A stretch of DNA of 43,630 nt from Methylococcales bacterium (lineage in GTDB: Bacteria > Pseudomonadota > Gammaproteobacteria > Methylococcales > Methylomonadaceae). Position 1 is the first letter of the stretch. Each line of letters begins with the position of its first letter. The stretch is from assembly GCA_003584865.1 (NCBI GenBank), contig QVQE01000095.1, forward strand, positions 1 through 43,630, written 5' to 3'. The position numbers and the translations under genes are program-made. The notes below the pieces were generated by a model. That model saw only the letters and a program-made list of their open reading frames with translations. It did not search any database and had not been told where the DNA came from. Of the stretch, positions 10,231 to 18,261 are shown one piece after another.

Positions 10231-10353
10231 CCATCACCCACGTGGGCTTTCGTTTTTGCCTGAGGTCCATCAAGCCAGGTCAGGAAAAGGCTTAGCTCGG
10301 CGGGATCGCCGGGCAGTGCGACCGGAGGGAGCTTTAGTCATTTAAAGCAGGCG
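10231..10353 (+). repeat. orphan FGE-gene 3' tail (third copy of the constant VR end, hairpin and 3' flank)
   Basis: cgtgggctttcgtttttgcctgaggtccatcaag...gctcggcgggatcgccgggc...tcatttaaagcaggcg closely matches 18143-18261. Confidence 0.85.
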
Positions 10354-10491: not shown

Positions 10492-11067
10492 GTGAAACTT
10501 AATGATGACTATAATCCCATGCAACCTCTACGACGTTTAATGCAAAACCTGGATAAATTGGCGAATGCTGAACATTATCTTTTCACACCTGATGATTTAA
10601 GGGCGCTTTTACCTGATTTAACCGATTCTGCTTTTAATACTCTTTTATGCCGTGTTAGTAAAGACCAACACTTAACCAGACTGTGTCGAGGACTCTATTT
10701 TTTTGAAAAAGTCGCGCCTATTTCTGGACTTTTATTATTTCATGCTGCCGCAAGATTACGCGCTGACTGCTTAAATTATATTAGTTTAGAAACGGTACTA
10801 AGTGATGCTGGGGTTATTTCTCAAATACCCATTAATCATATTACTGTTATGTCATCAGGACGTAGCAGTGTGATTTCTTGTGGTCGATGGGGAACCATTG
10901 AGTTTGTGCGTACCCGTCAAAAGCCTCAAGATTTAGAAAAGCTGATTTATTATGATGCCCGTTGCAAGTTATGGCGAGCGACCGTGCCACAAGCCCTGCG
11001 TGATATGCGAGTGACACATCGTAATACTGACTTAATAGATTGGAGTGTAGCTAATGAGTTTGTTTGA
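10492..11067 (+). CDS. abiEi: AbiEi-like antitoxin of type IV toxin-antitoxin system
   Basis: 191 aa, wHTH-like N-terminus, CRGLYFFEK and YISLETVLSDAGVISQIP motifs; overlaps AbiEii start; GTG start. Confidence 0.82.
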   Translation: MKLNDDYNPMQPLRRLMQNLDKLANAEHYLFTPDDLRALLPDLTDSAFNTLLCRVSKDQHLTRLCRGLYFFEKVAPISGLLLFHAAARLRADCLNYISLETVLSDAGVISQIPINHITVMSSGRSSVISCGRWGTIEFVRTRQKPQDLEKLIYYDARCKLWRATVPQALRDMRVTHRNTDLIDWSVANEFV

Positions 11068-11950
11068 TCAATTGGTCGATGAAGCCTTACAAAATAGACG
11101 AGAATTAAATTCTTTACGTGTAGTTGTCGAAAAAGAATTGTTGCATCATGATATTTTGCGCGTGTTAAGTGAGTCTGGCTTATTGAGTCGACTCACTTTT
11201 ATTGGCGGGACTTGTTTACGTGCGTGTTATGGCTCAAACCGACTGAGTGAAGACTTGGACTTTACGGGAGGAACTGACTTTAAGCGAGATAGATTAATAA
11301 CTATGGCCGAAAGTCTGGTTACGAACATGATGACTAAATACGGTCTAGAAATTCAGGTAAGTGAACCTACACGAGAAAGTGGTAACGTAGATACTTGGAA
11401 ACTAAAAGTACAGACTCGCCCAGATAGAAAAGATTTACCAGCCCAACGTATTAATATCGACGTGTGCGCTATACCCAGTTATCAACCACACCCCATGCTG
11501 TTATTAAACCCTTATGGCGTTGAAATGGGTACGAGTGGTTTAATTTTACAAGTTGAGAGTAGAGAGGAAATTTTTACTGATAAGCTGTGCGCCTTTGCAC
11601 TTCGTCCAAACCGAATTAAAAACCGTGATTTATGGGATATAGCCTGGTTACATCAACAAGGTGTTAGACCACAAATGGATTTACTGGCAAAAAAACTGAT
11701 AGACCATAAAACGGACACACTACAGTTTGTAAACTTATTTGAAATACGGTCTGCGACACTTAAAAATGATCCCAAGGTAGCACTAGAGTTTAAAAAAGAA
11801 ATGAGACGTTTCTTACCGGCGGATTTAGTGACTCAAACCGCTGATCAACCCGTATTTTGGGGCGTTATGAGCCAAATTATTCATAACTTCTCTTTGCAAA
11901 TTCGACAGCATTTTTTGAATTCTGATTCTATCGATGCCTTTAAAATGTGA
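11054..11950 (+). CDS. abiEii: AbiEii/AbiGii nucleotidyltransferase toxin
   Basis: LTFIGGTCLRACYGSNRLSEDLDFTGG NTase motif; DKLCAFALRPNRIKNRDLWDIAWL motif. Confidence 0.92.
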   Translation: MSLFDQLVDEALQNRRELNSLRVVVEKELLHHDILRVLSESGLLSRLTFIGGTCLRACYGSNRLSEDLDFTGGTDFKRDRLITMAESLVTNMMTKYGLEIQVSEPTRESGNVDTWKLKVQTRPDRKDLPAQRINIDVCAIPSYQPHPMLLLNPYGVEMGTSGLILQVESREEIFTDKLCAFALRPNRIKNRDLWDIAWLHQQGVRPQMDLLAKKLIDHKTDTLQFVNLFEIRSATLKNDPKVALEFKKEMRRFLPADLVTQTADQPVFWGVMSQIIHNFSLQIRQHFLNSDSIDAFKM

Positions 11951-12061: not shown

Positions 12062-13399
12062 ATGACTTCAGAAACCAGCACTAAACGATTTCGTATTGCC
12101 TTTTCCTTTGCAGGAGAAAAGCGGGAGTTTGTCAAAGCTACCGCACAGATTTTGGCTAAGCGATTTGGTGAAGATAAGATTTTGTATGACAAATTTCATA
12201 TAGCGGAGTTTGCTGATGCAGATCTTGGTTTTATTCTGCCTGATCTATACAAAAACGATACCGACTTAATTGTTGCTGTATTTTGTCGCGATTATGAGAA
12301 AAAGCAGTGGTGCGGCTTGGAGTGGCGAGCTGTCTTCTCAATGATTAAAGAAAACCAGTCAAAAAAAGTTCTGCTTAGTCGTTTTGATCTGATGGATGGC
12401 AAAGGCTTATTTGGGCTTGCTGGTTTTATCGATTTAGACGATGAAAGACCTGAACAATTTGCCGCCCTGATTCTTCAACGTCTCGCTATTAATGAAAGAA
12501 AGCCCAAAGATCACTATACAAAGGATTGCACTGAAACAACTCAAGTGGGTGTAATTGATGTTACTCAAGATTCCTATGAAAGCCATAAGAATCTTGCTTT
12601 AGAGTTATTAGAAAATTCTGAATCCTATCTGACTGAATTGAAAGCACTTATGAAATGTGCAGATGCAACTGAAATTATAAATCGCTTTAGTCAGTGTAAG
12701 CCTGAAGATGTTAATGCTTTGTTTCTAGTTTCCCGTAAAGCCTTGAACAAAGTTCGTTTTGCTGATTTAAATGAGTCTGACAAACACGATGTAATTGAAG
12801 CGGTTACGGCTTTGTATCTGCTTGCTGCACTGCGTTTGGTTGATGTTGCATCAGCACAAAGTGGTTATGTTGTATTAGTACCCAGTAATGAACGCATATT
12901 ATGTGCGATTATTGCAACTGCGTTATTTGGAGGTAGTTTAAAAGTATTGCCAGATTACGATACACACCTTCCTGTCCCAGAGTATGCTTTTGAGATTAAT
13001 GTTCCAGCGGCTGGCGATTACGTGACAGAGAGTTTTGAACGAGCCATGTATGTTTCGATATTTAAAAATAATCGAAAAGTCGATCTCAGTGCACTTGATT
13101 CGCAGAAACTGAGTCAAGATGAAATCAGTGATTTGAATGCCAGATTAGAATCTTTACGCGATGTTCATGAGCAAAATTTATGTTTGGTAGTGACTGGAAA
13201 TACCATCTCAGCGGATAATGCTGTTCCAATTTCAAACACATATAAAGTACCAACATTTTTTCAGTCGGATGATACCGCCACCGTTGTATTGGGCATGCCT
13301 TATCAAGACTTGACCGCGAAAATCAAACAATTCTGGCAGGATCTTAATGAGCTTCGAAGTAAACACTTATCCCAATCATCTATTACAGGAGTGCAGTAG
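12062..13399 (+). CDS. TIR-domain protein with unassigned C-terminal domain
   Basis: N-terminal FRIAFSFAGEKREFVKATAQIL...LYDKFHIAEFADADLGFILPDLYKNDTDLIVAVFCRDYEKKQWCGLEWRAV matches TIR_2-like pattern including WCxxE. Confidence 0.85.
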   Translation: MTSETSTKRFRIAFSFAGEKREFVKATAQILAKRFGEDKILYDKFHIAEFADADLGFILPDLYKNDTDLIVAVFCRDYEKKQWCGLEWRAVFSMIKENQSKKVLLSRFDLMDGKGLFGLAGFIDLDDERPEQFAALILQRLAINERKPKDHYTKDCTETTQVGVIDVTQDSYESHKNLALELLENSESYLTELKALMKCADATEIINRFSQCKPEDVNALFLVSRKALNKVRFADLNESDKHDVIEAVTALYLLAALRLVDVASAQSGYVVLVPSNERILCAIIATALFGGSLKVLPDYDTHLPVPEYAFEINVPAAGDYVTESFERAMYVSIFKNNRKVDLSALDSQKLSQDEISDLNARLESLRDVHEQNLCLVVTGNTISADNAVPISNTYKVPTFFQSDDTATVVLGMPYQDLTAKIKQFWQDLNELRSKHLSQSSITGVQ

Positions 13400-14380
13400 A
13401 TGCTCCCACCCACTATGAAAACCATTAACCCGTTTATCGATTTAATACCAGAAACAACTGAGACATTAACGCCCAGCAACCGCTTTCCAGCTGCCGGTCA
13501 CCTATGGAGCAAGCCGGAAATTGATGCCCTGATTTTTGCCTTTGCTGCTCGACGACCCTTATTAGTCCGTGGTGAAGCAGGGAGTGGTAAGAGTCAAATA
13601 GCGCGAGCGGCGGCACAGCACCTGAAAACAAATGAACCCTTGGTTGAAGTGATTCATCCACGCTTTGAAGCACTGGATTTATTATACCGCGTTGATGTCG
13701 TTGAGCGTTTGGCAGATGCACAAATCCAGGATCTTGACAAAACCAATGAACGGTATGTTAAGCGTGGACGGCTTTGGGAAGCACTGGCGCAGATGGACAA
13801 AGACCCAGACTGTATTCCGGTACTTCTGATTGACGAAATCGATAAAGCCGATGCCGATCTACCCAATGCCTTGTTGGATGTGTTGGGTAACCGCAGTTTT
13901 GACGTACCCCCTTTAAACAATCGCACGATTCATGCACCCGATCAACGCTGGCCGTTGATTATTATTACCACCAACGAAGAGCGCGAATTGCCACCCGCTT
14001 TTATTCGTCGCTGTGCTGTACTTAATCTCAATCCACCAAAGGATGATAAGCCGTTTATTGAGTGGTTGATTCAGCGGGGCAAGGTGCATAACCATTTGAT
14101 TATTGAAGAAGCGGCTCGCCAAACAGCCGCCGAACAGGTTCTGGAAGATCGTAAAGCTGCGGAACAGGCGGGCTATCCCAAAGTGGGCTTGGCTGAATAT
14201 ATAGATTTGCTCACCGCGCTGCATGAACTGATGCAGACAAGAAGCGGCAAAGCGCCTCATAAAAGTCAACTAGACTGGTTGAATCAAATAAGCCCTTATG
14301 CCTTGGTCAAACACGCGGAACAAAATCAGGGGCGTTCCCCGGTGATACCCTCAGCGGCTACCCCGTCAGAGGCTGATTAA
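13400..14380 (+). CDS. MoxR-like AAA+ ATPase
   Basis: Walker A GEAGSGKS, Walker B VLLIDEIDKADADLPNALLDVL, sensor ITTNEERELPPAFIRRC. Confidence 0.9.
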   Translation: MLPPTMKTINPFIDLIPETTETLTPSNRFPAAGHLWSKPEIDALIFAFAARRPLLVRGEAGSGKSQIARAAAQHLKTNEPLVEVIHPRFEALDLLYRVDVVERLADAQIQDLDKTNERYVKRGRLWEALAQMDKDPDCIPVLLIDEIDKADADLPNALLDVLGNRSFDVPPLNNRTIHAPDQRWPLIIITTNEERELPPAFIRRCAVLNLNPPKDDKPFIEWLIQRGKVHNHLIIEEAARQTAAEQVLEDRKAAEQAGYPKVGLAEYIDLLTALHELMQTRSGKAPHKSQLDWLNQISPYALVKHAEQNQGRSPVIPSAATPSEAD

Positions 14381-14382
14381 GC

Positions 14383-17340
14383 TTGAAACCTTTTGCACCT
14401 TCATCAGCCAACGGTCAAGTTGGTAGAGCCGATTTACTGCGTCTGCTTGCGATAGCGCCGCGCACGGAGCTGTGGCTCGATGACGATGGGGTGCATCAAT
14501 TCGGTTATCAGTATCGCCCCCTGTCGAACGAGCCGAAAGAGCCCGATAATGGTGTCTTACCTCCACCTCCTGAGCCGATTATCTCAACCAGTCATTTCAA
14601 ACTGCCATTACAGATGCCGTTCGTTAATCTGGTTGTAGATCGGCAAGCACGCGAACAAAGAACGCAAACAGAATCCTCAAGCCCAACCGCTGCCGTTTAT
14701 GAACCCATTACCGAAGCCGATGCCAAATCGCCTTCAAAAATAAGGTTGGTCAACTATGAAGACCTGGTACCCAAAGCCCGCTTGTTACCTGCGCTTAAAC
14801 ACTATTTGTCAAGTAACCGCTTGGCAGGTATGGATGTGCAGCGTTTGGTAAAACAAATAGCTCTACAACAACTGCCCCGCTATTTGCCGCGTTGCCACGT
14901 TAAAAGTTGGCATCCTCAATGGCTAGTGGTTTTAGATTTTGCTAAACGACTGTGGCCTTATCGACAAGACATGCATGCATTAGCCGAGAATTTGCTTAAA
15001 GCCTGTGGTCAATCCGGTGTGTCTATTCGTATTATCAACCACGGGCCTTTGCAGAACTGGACTGATTGGGTAGAAGAACAGCAGGGTCGTGGGGTGTTGC
15101 CAAGCAAACACACTTGGCGTATGCCGGTTGTCAATACGCCGGTTTTGCTGGTCAGCGATTTAGGTTTACTGGAAGGCCGGGACTCAAGCACGCATCAGGC
15201 CTGGCAAGACTTTATCCGGCAACTGACGCAAGCGCAAATCAAGCCACTGGCACTGTTACCTTTGGCAGCGGAGCAACTCGATGCCGGGCTGCCTAAGAAG
15301 CTAACCTTATTGCGTTGGAGTCCCGATGCCCGCATTCATCCAGAACGTGCAATGGGTAATGGCTTGAACGTTCCCGACGGTTTGGACGATTTATTGGCGA
15401 TGGCTGCCGTTACCCGTCGGGTCGATCCGCCGTTGTTACGGGCTCTGCGACGTTTAAATCCAAAAGCGCCGCTCAATGCTGGACTTGAAGGTGCGTTTTG
15501 GTGTCATGCCGATGTTGAAGCGGGTTCTGCTGCCCATATACGCCATGCCGTACAAGCCAAACATCAGGCGCATTTTTCCGAGCACTTACAGGAGTGCCAT
15601 ATAGAATTGGAGCGACTGCGTTATTTGCATCACGCGCATTTACGCGCAGTGTTGAATCATGAAGAAACACTTTTGTGGTATGCGCACGCTAAATTGGACG
15701 GGGTGCAAGTTTCTGAAGAAACCCAAGAACGACTACAGAAGGCAGATACCTTTATGCGTCAACTGGCCGCTACCTTGAAACAACCGGACGGTTTGCAAAA
15801 AGGGGGGGTATGGTGGAGCGTGGCGCAGGAAATTGTGCAACGCGCTGATAATCAGATGGGTAAGGATTTCATAGAGTTGCTGGCGCCACTGGTGCAGGTG
15901 ATTGCTGAAGTGCGCGGCGTTTGGCAACAGCCGCCTGACTGGGTAGACCCAATCGATCTTGTTAGTGATGACCGTAAACGTCAATCCTGCTGGCTAGTGA
16001 ACGATCCAGTCACCTGTAGTATTGTGCTACAGTCTACCCCTCCAGAACGTAACCAAATTGCTTTGTCTGAGCCAATTACTATCGATCAAGGTGGTTTACG
16101 CATCGAAAGCACTGGATCAAGAATCTTGCTCTTAATGGCTCACTTGCCTTTTCGCGTATGCGGATTGCAGGAGCAGACGTTGATTAAGCTAATTAGTAGT
16201 CAAGAAGTTTTAACGTTGGCCAGTGTAAAAAGACCACGTGGAGCGGCTGCCTGGGGTTGGAAAGTGCCACATTCAGAAATTTGGGTGAGGTCTGCACCGA
16301 TTTGTGGGCAAGGATACGAATGGAGTGCTTCTGGCAATCCAAGCGACCAGTTACTCAAAATAGTTTTAACAGAAAACGGCCAATACCAATTGGTGGAGAA
16401 TCAACTAAGTAGTCAGATCAAACTTTTGGACATTCATCCTAGTTATATTTCATACGATTATGAAAATACGGCTTCCAGGGTACGATTCGTTCTGGATGAG
16501 TACGGTGTTCGAGCTGATTTGAGTGTGATTACTGCACCTGATGAACTCATTCAAACCTTACGCTGGATCGACCCCGGCACTTTCTGGATGGGCTCTCCAG
16601 AGGATGAGCTGGAACGATACGATAATGAAGGACCTCGTCACGAAGTCACCATTAGTCGTGGCTTCTGGCTGGCAGATTCTGCTTGTACTCAAGCCTTATG
16701 GCAAGCGGTAATGGGCAACAATCCCAGTCGTTTTAAAGATGATCCCCAGCAACCAGTGGAGCAAGTCAGTTGGCACGATGTTCAAGCGTTTTTACAGCGA
16801 CTACAAGAATTGTTGCCGGGTTGCCAAGTCGATTTACCTAGCGAAGCCGAATGGGAATATGCGTGCCGTGCAGGAACTCAGTCGCCATTCAGTTTCGGTA
16901 CCAACATTAACCCGCAGCAAGTTAATTACTATGGCGAAAATCCTTATCCCGGTGGCGAGAAAGGTGAATACCTCGCAAAGACCGTACCGGTAAAAAGCCT
17001 GCCTGCCAATCCTTGGGGATTGTATGAAATGCACGGCAACGTATATGAGTGGTGTAAAGATGGTCAACGGACTTATGATGAGCAAGCTCAAATCGATCCA
17101 CTGGGGCCAATGACTGGCGATGATAATCCCCGGTGCCTTCGCGGCGGTTCTTGGGACGGCTACGCCAGGTGGGCGCGTTCGGCCTTCCGCAGCGCCTACC
17201 AGCCCGACGATGCCATCAACGACGTGGGCTTTCGTTTTTGCCTGAGGTCCATCGAGTCAGGTCAGGTAACAGGAAGCCCGGCGGGCAGGGCGACCGGAGG
17301 GAGCCCAGACCAGGGGCGGAAGGGTGTCAAGTCGAAATGA
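14383..17340 (+). CDS. large protein: vWA-like N-terminal/middle region fused to C-terminal FGE-sulfatase (SUMF1/C-type-lectin fold) domain with variable 3' end
   Basis: 985 aa, TTG start 2 bp after the ATPase gene; WLVVLDFAKRLWPYRQDMHALAENLLKAC...PVLLVSDLGLLEG Rossmann-like; C-terminal WIDPGTFWMGSPEDE...GNVYEW...GGSW...VGFRFCLRS. Confidence 0.85.
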   Translation: MKPFAPSSANGQVGRADLLRLLAIAPRTELWLDDDGVHQFGYQYRPLSNEPKEPDNGVLPPPPEPIISTSHFKLPLQMPFVNLVVDRQAREQRTQTESSSPTAAVYEPITEADAKSPSKIRLVNYEDLVPKARLLPALKHYLSSNRLAGMDVQRLVKQIALQQLPRYLPRCHVKSWHPQWLVVLDFAKRLWPYRQDMHALAENLLKACGQSGVSIRIINHGPLQNWTDWVEEQQGRGVLPSKHTWRMPVVNTPVLLVSDLGLLEGRDSSTHQAWQDFIRQLTQAQIKPLALLPLAAEQLDAGLPKKLTLLRWSPDARIHPERAMGNGLNVPDGLDDLLAMAAVTRRVDPPLLRALRRLNPKAPLNAGLEGAFWCHADVEAGSAAHIRHAVQAKHQAHFSEHLQECHIELERLRYLHHAHLRAVLNHEETLLWYAHAKLDGVQVSEETQERLQKADTFMRQLAATLKQPDGLQKGGVWWSVAQEIVQRADNQMGKDFIELLAPLVQVIAEVRGVWQQPPDWVDPIDLVSDDRKRQSCWLVNDPVTCSIVLQSTPPERNQIALSEPITIDQGGLRIESTGSRILLLMAHLPFRVCGLQEQTLIKLISSQEVLTLASVKRPRGAAAWGWKVPHSEIWVRSAPICGQGYEWSASGNPSDQLLKIVLTENGQYQLVENQLSSQIKLLDIHPSYISYDYENTASRVRFVLDEYGVRADLSVITAPDELIQTLRWIDPGTFWMGSPEDELERYDNEGPRHEVTISRGFWLADSACTQALWQAVMGNNPSRFKDDPQQPVEQVSWHDVQAFLQRLQELLPGCQVDLPSEAEWEYACRAGTQSPFSFGTNINPQQVNYYGENPYPGGEKGEYLAKTVPVKSLPANPWGLYEMHGNVYEWCKDGQRTYDEQAQIDPLGPMTGDDNPRCLRGGSWDGYARWARSAFRSAYQPDDAINDVGFRFCLRSIESGQVTGSPAGRATGGSPDQGRKGVKSK
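17155..17223 (+). other. variable segment of putative DGR variable repeat, VR1
   Basis: 23 codons differing from VR2 at 17 positions, all at codon positions 1/2, flanked by identical constant blocks. Confidence 0.85.
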
Positions 17341-18245
17341 ACACAAGCTCCCGTTTCCCCAACCCGTTTCCACCCCCCTTCGCTCATGCTTGGGGCGATG
17401 ATGAATTTGGACTTTGGGCTGAGTTTAGGCTTGAGGTACCTAACGGTGAGTCAGTGGTACAAAACTTCCGCTGGATAGAGCCTGGCACTTTCTGGATGGG
17501 TTCGCCGGAGGATGAGCCAGAACGATTCAAAAATGAAGGACCACGTCACGAGGTAACTATTAATCAAGGTTTCTGGCTGGCCGATTCTGCTTGTACTCAG
17601 GCCTTATGGCAGGCGGTAATGGACAATAATCCCAGTAGTTTTAAAGATGATCCCCAACAGCCAGTGGAGAATGTCAGTTGGCATAACGTGCAAGCGTTTT
17701 TAAAGCGCCTGCAAGAACGGTTGCAAAGTTTGTTGCCAGGTTGCCAAGTCGATTTGCCCAGCGAAGCCGAATGGGAATATGCGTGCCGTGCGGGTACGAC
17801 TACGCCGTTTAGTTTCGGCGCCAACATTAACCCGCAGCAAGTTAACTATGACGGTAACTATCCTTATTTCGGAGACGAGAAGGGTGAATTCCGTAAAAAG
17901 ACCGTACCGGTCAAAAGCCTGCCTGCCAATCCTTGGGGATTGTATGAAATGCACGGTAATGTCTGGGAGTGGTGTAAGGAGGGTCAACGGACTTATGACG
18001 AACAAGTGCAAATCGATCCACTGGGGCCAATGACAGGCGATGATATTCCCCGGTGCCTTCGCGGCGGTTCTTGGATCGACTACGCCAGGTGGGCGCGTTC
18101 GTCCAACCGCTACGCCCTCCAGCCCGTCAGTGCCAGCGACCTCGTGGGCTTTCGTTTTTGCCTGAGGTCCATCAAGTCAGGTCAGGTCAGGAAAAGGCTT
18201 AGCCCGGCGGGATCGCCGGGCAGGGGCGACCGGAGGGAGCCTTAG
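17337..18245 (+). CDS. FGE-sulfatase (C-type-lectin fold) domain protein with variable 3' end
   Basis: 302 aa; MNTSSRFPNPFPPPFAHAWGDDEFGLWAEF...WIEPGTFWMGSPEDE...GNVWEW...GGSWIDYARWARSSNRYALQPVSASDLVGFRFCLRS; ATGA overlap with upstream stop. The track start at 17133 overlaps VR1 out of frame and is unlikely. Confidence 0.9.
   Translation: MNTSSRFPNPFPPPFAHAWGDDEFGLWAEFRLEVPNGESVVQNFRWIEPGTFWMGSPEDEPERFKNEGPRHEVTINQGFWLADSACTQALWQAVMDNNPSSFKDDPQQPVENVSWHNVQAFLKRLQERLQSLLPGCQVDLPSEAEWEYACRAGTTTPFSFGANINPQQVNYDGNYPYFGDEKGEFRKKTVPVKSLPANPWGLYEMHGNVWEWCKEGQRTYDEQVQIDPLGPMTGDDIPRCLRGGSWIDYARWARSSNRYALQPVSASDLVGFRFCLRSIKSGQVRKRLSPAGSPGRGDRREP
18075..18143 (+). other. variable segment of putative DGR variable repeat, VR2
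   Basis: same-length 23-codon variable segment as VR1, identical constant flanks. Confidence 0.85.
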
Positions 18246-18261
18246 TCATTTAAAGCAGGCG
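18143..18261 (+). repeat. constant FGE 3' tail + hairpin + 3' flank (repeat copy 3)
   Basis: close match to 10241-10353; related shorter copy at 17222-17305. Confidence 0.85.
18202..18221 (+). other. perfect 8-bp stem, 4-nt loop hairpin downstream of VR2
   Basis: GCCCGGCG-GGAT-CGCCGGGC; compensating wobble version GCTCGGCG-GGAT-CGCCGGGC at 10295-10314. Confidence 0.85.

Follow-up and report, generated by a model that had tools for sequence, protein, structure and literature searches.

A putative conflict operon pairing an exchangeable effector with a MoxR protein, a vWA-like domain and formerly diversified lectin domains in a Methylococcales genome

The DNA analysed here (the window) is the whole of contig QVQE01000095.1, 43,630 nucleotides long, from GCA_003584865.1, a 2.5 Mb and 75% complete assembly of a methane-oxidising Methylococcales bacterium. 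The subject is a four-gene operon on its forward (+) strand, to which all coordinates refer unless another locus is named; genomes, contigs and loci used for comparison carry the prefixes G, C and L. An earlier note on this operon, made from the sequence alone, had described four co-directional genes that abut or overlap and encode a TIR protein, a MoxR-like AAA+ ATPase, a vWA-like region fused to an FGE domain, and a second FGE protein, with the FGE ends diversified by a diversity-generating retroelement (DGR). The four open reading frames (ORFs) were recovered at the coordinates given there, 12062-18245, and in that order. The MoxR gene (13400..14380, 326 amino acids) starts directly after the TAG of the TIR gene (12062..13399, 445 amino acids; junction 13399/13400) and is followed, after a gap of 2 nucleotides, by the gene for a protein of 985 amino acids with a TTG start (target 1, 14383..17340). 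An ATGA overlap at 17337-17340 joins target 1 to the gene for a short FGE/C-type-lectin protein of 302 amino acids (target 2, 17337..18245), the start of which had been placed too far upstream in the ORF listing, at an over-long GTG at 17133. A promoter scan was uninformative, with fewer sites than in shuffled sequences. The closest named relative of the locus is an uncultured Methylococcaceae metagenome-assembled genome.

The first two genes were assigned by Pfam matches and motifs, as had been proposed. TIR_2 matched residues 12-136 of the 445-residue protein above the cut-off (30.7 bits, 4.7e-07; cut-off 28), and the domain contains a WCxxE motif (WCGLE) whose glutamate, residue 87, we take to be the catalytic glutamate of TIR. 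AAA_5 matched the 326-residue protein with 46.6 bits (cut-off 22), and this protein, conserved across 19 aligned loci, has a Walker A motif (GEAGSGKS, residue 58), a Walker B motif (LLIDEID, 142), sensor 1 (TTNEE, 190) and an RR finger region (FIRRC, 201). Matches to iSTAND, FtsH and beta-propeller domains did not exceed the Pfam cut-offs in the four operon proteins (bpMoxR, 16.4 bits; cut-off 27).

Target 1 consists of a long N-terminal extension, with a vWA-like domain and a helical region, followed by an FGE/C-type-lectin domain. The N-terminal 720 residues gave no convincing Pfam match, and the extension was therefore assigned by structure and profile comparison, using an alignment with 19 relatives. 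Residues 118-505 were modelled by AlphaFold with a predicted local distance difference test (pLDDT) value of 83. The top Foldseek match was chain G of NorQD, a complex of a MoxR protein with its vWA partner (probability 0.99, E 1.3e-3), closely followed by the vWA domain of an adhesin. The structural comparison does not decide the matter by itself, since the VIA-align Z was 8.2 against vWA domains and 7.8 against the next unrelated folds. Profile comparison supports the assignment better: hhalign against the vWA region of VMAP systems from the genus Streptomyces scored 43.1 (shuffle maximum 27.4), with an alignment collinear over 144 columns that includes the strand-1 aspartate and the SD motif, and comparison with CoxE-type vWA proteins gave 31.5 versus 28.7. 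These results support a vWA-like domain at about residues 174-320 (DNA 14902-15342), homologous to the vWA of VMAP ternary systems, and so bear out the region and the fold on which the earlier proposal had depended, with Pfam silent. A phosphoribosyltransferase fold for residues 120-400 (VIA Z up to 7.8) was discounted, since the two aspartate motifs of vWA are in register in the alignments with VMAP-type and CoxE vWA domains. Weak matches of the vWA-region profile to HIV capsid in a PDB sequence search were taken as chance.

The FGE domains were assigned by Pfam FGE-sulfatase matches of 147 bits in target 1 (residues 728-952, DNA 16564-17238) and 146 bits in target 2 (residues 46-274, DNA 17472-18158). 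Both genes end in a candidate variable repeat (VR), VR1 at 17128..17246 and VR2 at 18048..18166, which were compared with the 119-base template repeat (TR) of sister genome G166, in which 25 of the 119 positions are adenines. VR1 differs from this TR at 14 positions, 13 of them TR adenines (Fisher p 8e-10), and VR2 at 15, again with 13 at adenines (p 6e-9); the two VRs of G166 itself differ from the TR at adenines only (12/12 and 16/16). This bias identifies the FGE tails as true DGR variable repeats that were diversified in the past by a DGR. The claim of DGR-diversified FGE domains thus stands for the repeats, but the window contains neither a reverse transcriptase (RT) nor a TR.

Target 2 is identical between the window and G166 outside the VR (0/767 differences), whereas the VR2 copies differ at 18/119 positions, 16 of the 18 at TR adenines. 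Since the same two loci differ at 148/2168 positions in the vWA region of target 1, the exchange of target 2 between lineages appears recent, and its VR has probably been rewritten since in one or both of them. A GC-rich hairpin with an 8-bp stem and a 4-nucleotide loop lies 3' of VR2 (18202..18221) and is likened to DGR target recognition sites, although its loop, GGAT, is not a full match to the consensus GRNA; in phage BPP-1, DGR homing depends on a downstream hairpin of this shape (PMC3240598). Both hairpins are present in G166. In the window the VR2 hairpin is intact and that of VR1 survives as a broken remnant (17276..17286), the G166 orthologue of which has an intact 7-bp stem; in G238 no perfect hairpin was detected.

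The fate of the diversifying cassette was read from sister loci. Neither RT nor TR was found in the window, and the window's own assembly gave no RVT_1 match and contains only a truncated RT, on contig C95. In G166 (L048, on the same contig as L068) an accessory protein with an HRDC domain, an RT and a TR lie between the two FGE genes, and in both G166 and G182 the cassette occupies the target 1/target 2 junction; in the orthologues it measures about 1.9 kb. The flanks of the corresponding site in the window (17330..17345) align to L068 at 5393 and 7310, either side of the cassette, and an ATGAA motif is found on each side of the missing segment. The alignment indicates that the RT/TR cassette has been deleted in the window and that the ATGA overlap of targets 1 and 2 is the scar. 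In G238 (L049) the junction reads as a separate deletion that took out RT and TR and left the accessory gene fused, at a TTTTGCCTGA common to both sides, to the TR's 3' end. By these junctions, at least two deletions of the cassette have occurred in this group of close relatives, and the cassette is present in L048/L068, L051, L059, L070, L075 and L078. With the cassette gone, the sensors at the window locus would be frozen unless an RT acts from elsewhere, possibly from the quarter of the genome that the assembly lacks, and the repertoire is probably fixed. The accessory protein (170 residues; HRDC, Pfam 2.2e-17; L048 4047-4559 and L051 10265-10777) differs from that of the BPP-1 prototype, which is a four-helix protein. 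The effector gene of G238 (L049 2605-3873) has lost its TIR domain and retains the upstream region and start codon.

Loss of the RT, together with the broken VR1 hairpin, raises the alternative that the whole locus is decaying and its genes are heading toward pseudogenes. The independent deletion in G238, with its TIR domain also gone, and the truncated RT at the genome's other DGR (C95) point the same way. The four genes are nevertheless intact and collinear over about 6.2 kb with catalytic motifs retained, target 2 matches G166 exactly outside the VR, the TIR-MoxR part is 99% identical to G218, and effector-MoxR-vWA.FGE loci commonly keep the operon after the diversifier has gone. General decay is accordingly considered rather unlikely.

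Conservation of the gene set was examined in relatives, since the earlier note had held that the genes should co-occur in other genomes. The target 1 extension was found in 37 of 301 genomes of the order. In 23 vWA-FGE loci, which were found without MoxR as a query and include the window and its paralogues L014 and L015, a MoxR gene lies directly upstream in 22, and because MoxR was not used to find them the association exceeds chance. A MoxR-based scan of named genomes added Accumulibacter, Nitrosomonas, Lysobacterales, a tubeworm endosymbiont, Deltaproteobacteria, Planctomycetes and Verrucomicrobia; generic CoxE-type loci also drawn by this query (L085 onward) were set aside. The order effector-MoxR-vWA.FGE-FGE is kept in Methylococcaceae, Accumulibacter, Nitrosomonas, Lysobacterales, Deltaproteobacteria, Planctomycetes and Verrucomicrobia, so that the expected co-occurrence holds in other genomes. 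The vWA domain itself is uncommon, being detected at a stricter threshold in 8 of 369 genomes of the class sample.

The gene before MoxR is variable. It encodes a TIR/SEFIR domain in 21 loci, a trypsin-like domain in 5 (with weak scores), a metallophosphatase in 4, and PRTase-CE and SIR2 in 1 each. For TIR and metallophosphatase, a few of these identifications depend on a below-cut-off score or on the second gene upstream; the remaining slots are unrecognised or interrupted. The TIR protein is therefore a member of the operon here, as had been claimed, but it is one of several exchangeable effectors and not a fixed partner. The SIR2-like domain lies at L078 5875-7851, in an Isosphaeraceae genome. 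At L082 and L083, TIR-MoxR-vWA occurs without FGE on the vWA protein, and on this account FGE and DGR seem to have been added to a core that is older.

Behind these different enzyme domains a C-terminal domain of about 230 residues is shared by effectors of four enzyme types. Jackhmmer searches from two seeds joined 15 of the 33 collected effectors through this domain and gave no link to the C-terminal domains of the window type, L070 or L074. By profile-profile comparison the window-type C-terminal region matched the other effectors with an hhalign probability of 81.5 and a score of 43.7 (block-shuffle maximum 36.1), and in the reverse direction with a probability of 37.9 and a score of 34.7; the region at about residues 200-435 of the window TIR protein is thus probably a divergent copy of the shared domain. 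Homology of the shared domain to VMAP-C was rejected: Pfam found no VMAP-C in the effectors, hhalign scores of 9-13 were at shuffle level, and a search that finds VMAP-C in 17 of 21 genomes of the genus Streptomyces gave 0 matches in the window's genome.

Taken together, the locus probably represents, at moderate confidence, a MoxR-vWA-centred conflict (immune) operon composed of an exchangeable effector, MoxR, and a vWA-FGE and a short FGE protein that were diversified by a DGR whose cassette has since been deleted. In such an operon the diversified lectin tails would bind an invader ligand, the vWA part would present the ligand-bound state to the MoxR ring, and ATP-driven remodelling by MoxR would release or activate the effector via its C-terminal domain, whereupon the TIR domain would consume NAD+ or make a signal and so halt the infected cell. 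We infer these roles in sensing, transmission and killing or signalling, and with them an anti-phage function, from what is established about MoxR-vWA pairs and TIR effectors. A role of this kind has precedents in the literature: for DGR targets a sensor role, still to be tested, has been proposed (Dore et al. 2024, PMC10907252), and in MoxR-vWA systems the vWA protein has been proposed to capture a peptide and MoxR to release it altered (Kaur et al. 2020, PMC7159879).

Several considerations weigh against an immune operon of this form. The ligand of the family, the NAD+ consumption and the phage phenotype are predictions from gene content, and two FGE proteins without an RT could serve a purpose other than invader sensing. 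The structural match to vWA is by itself of moderate strength, and the MIDAS (metal-ion-dependent adhesion site) serines are absent from the vWA-like domain. The C-terminal domain is assigned a coupling role because effectors share it, and profile comparison ties the window's copy to it moderately.

A different use of the same genes would be DGR-tuned recognition of self and non-self or of surfaces (kin recognition, adhesion), not directed at phage, with TIR serving as a signalling scaffold. A variable lectin domain is free to bind any kind of ligand, and most loci encode two lectin proteins, both of which would suit such a role. The effector slot, however, is filled with TIR/SEFIR, SIR2, PRTase-CE, trypsin-like and metallophosphatase domains, several of which are typical of suicide effectors in conflict systems, and an AbiE toxin-antitoxin pair adjoins the operon; a recognition system of this kind is judged unlikely. 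It is highly improbable that the TIR gene is an unrelated neighbour of a system comprising MoxR-vWA.FGE-FGE only. The effector type does vary from locus to locus, and at L058 the next gene upstream of MoxR encodes a transposase, but most loci, among them L082 and L083 with no FGE on the vWA protein, have a TIR/SEFIR or other effector gene abutting MoxR, and one C-terminal domain is common to effectors of four enzyme types.

The conflict operon preferred here was compared with known systems. The earlier note had been unsure whether the gene combination had been described; it matches the variation reported for clade 5A DGR loci and DGR 8 of Thiohalocapsa PB-PSB1 (Dore et al. 2024, PMC10907252), and is not a new kind. 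As in those loci, MoxR lies directly upstream of a two-target set, one target extended and the second a short lectin-only protein, with adjacent effectors that include TIR. In clade 5A the extension was reported without a predicted domain, in place of vWA, whereas the window extension is vWA-like; the RT is missing from the window locus, and the likeness rests on gene arrangement. This variation is itself related to the MoxR-vWA-centred ternary systems (PMC7159879), in which, as in the window, a MoxR AAA+ protein adjoins a vWA protein. The VMAP-type members of that group have a homologous vWA, a MoxR protein, an enzyme domain N-terminal on the third component, a vWA-FGE fusion in DGR-linked examples and, as seen in the genus Streptomyces, the same order of third component, MoxR and vWA; they differ in that the third component of the window operon is without VMAP-C. 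Thoeris and other TIR phage defences likewise use a TIR effector with a conserved glutamate motif, but the gating partner here is MoxR-vWA and the operon has no Thoeris partner gene. NorQ-NorD (NorQD being the top Foldseek match), RavA-ViaA and CoxE-type pairs likewise set a MoxR AAA+ protein beside a vWA partner, but these serve as chaperones in metal insertion or assembly and have neither lectin tails nor effectors, and the window vWA, unlike theirs, lacks the MIDAS serines.

Relative to these descriptions, two elements appear new: the vWA assignment, which is offered for the N-terminal extension in loci resembling clade 5A, and the shared non-VMAP-C effector domain. The present comparison also adds that effector domains are swapped before this common domain and that the cassette has been deleted at least twice. 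It is possible, and is put forward tentatively, that these loci form a further MoxR-vWA immune class, with a common non-VMAP-C coupling domain, interchangeable killing enzymes, and DGR-diversified lectin sensors whose cassette is repeatedly lost, leaving fixed repertoires. DGR-tuned immune sensors, if real, would give bacteria a counterpart of a receptor repertoire that mutates. The family is compact, combining one MoxR-vWA core with natural effector swaps and loci with and without RT, and two sister target 2 alleles differ in the variable repeat only; whether the variable repeat sets detection is therefore directly testable.

Further features were noted around the operon and elsewhere in the genome. 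Directly upstream lies the AbiEi/AbiEii type IV toxin-antitoxin pair (10492-11950), which is present with 99% identity in G218 (L184) and absent at the same place in G238 (L049). Upstream of this pair, and not listed previously, a truncated third VR copy (10231..10353; matches of 57, 47 and 36 nucleotides, 88-97%) consists of the 3' end of an FGE target plus the flank that follows it. Direct repeats at 10231-10353 and 18133-18261 bracket the AbiE pair and the entire operon, which suggests either an earlier tandem copy or recombination of one copy with another. A second DGR-like locus in the same genome (L013, contig C95, 1354-5092) comprises an nSTAND1-FGE target of 976 amino acids, an ORF of 116 amino acids and an RT frame that ends after about 125 residues. 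The genome also carries two paralogous effector-MoxR-vWA.FGE-FGE operons, L014 (C72) and L015 (C46); each has a TIR effector and lacks an RT beside it, and L014 retains a 31-residue remnant of the accessory gene.
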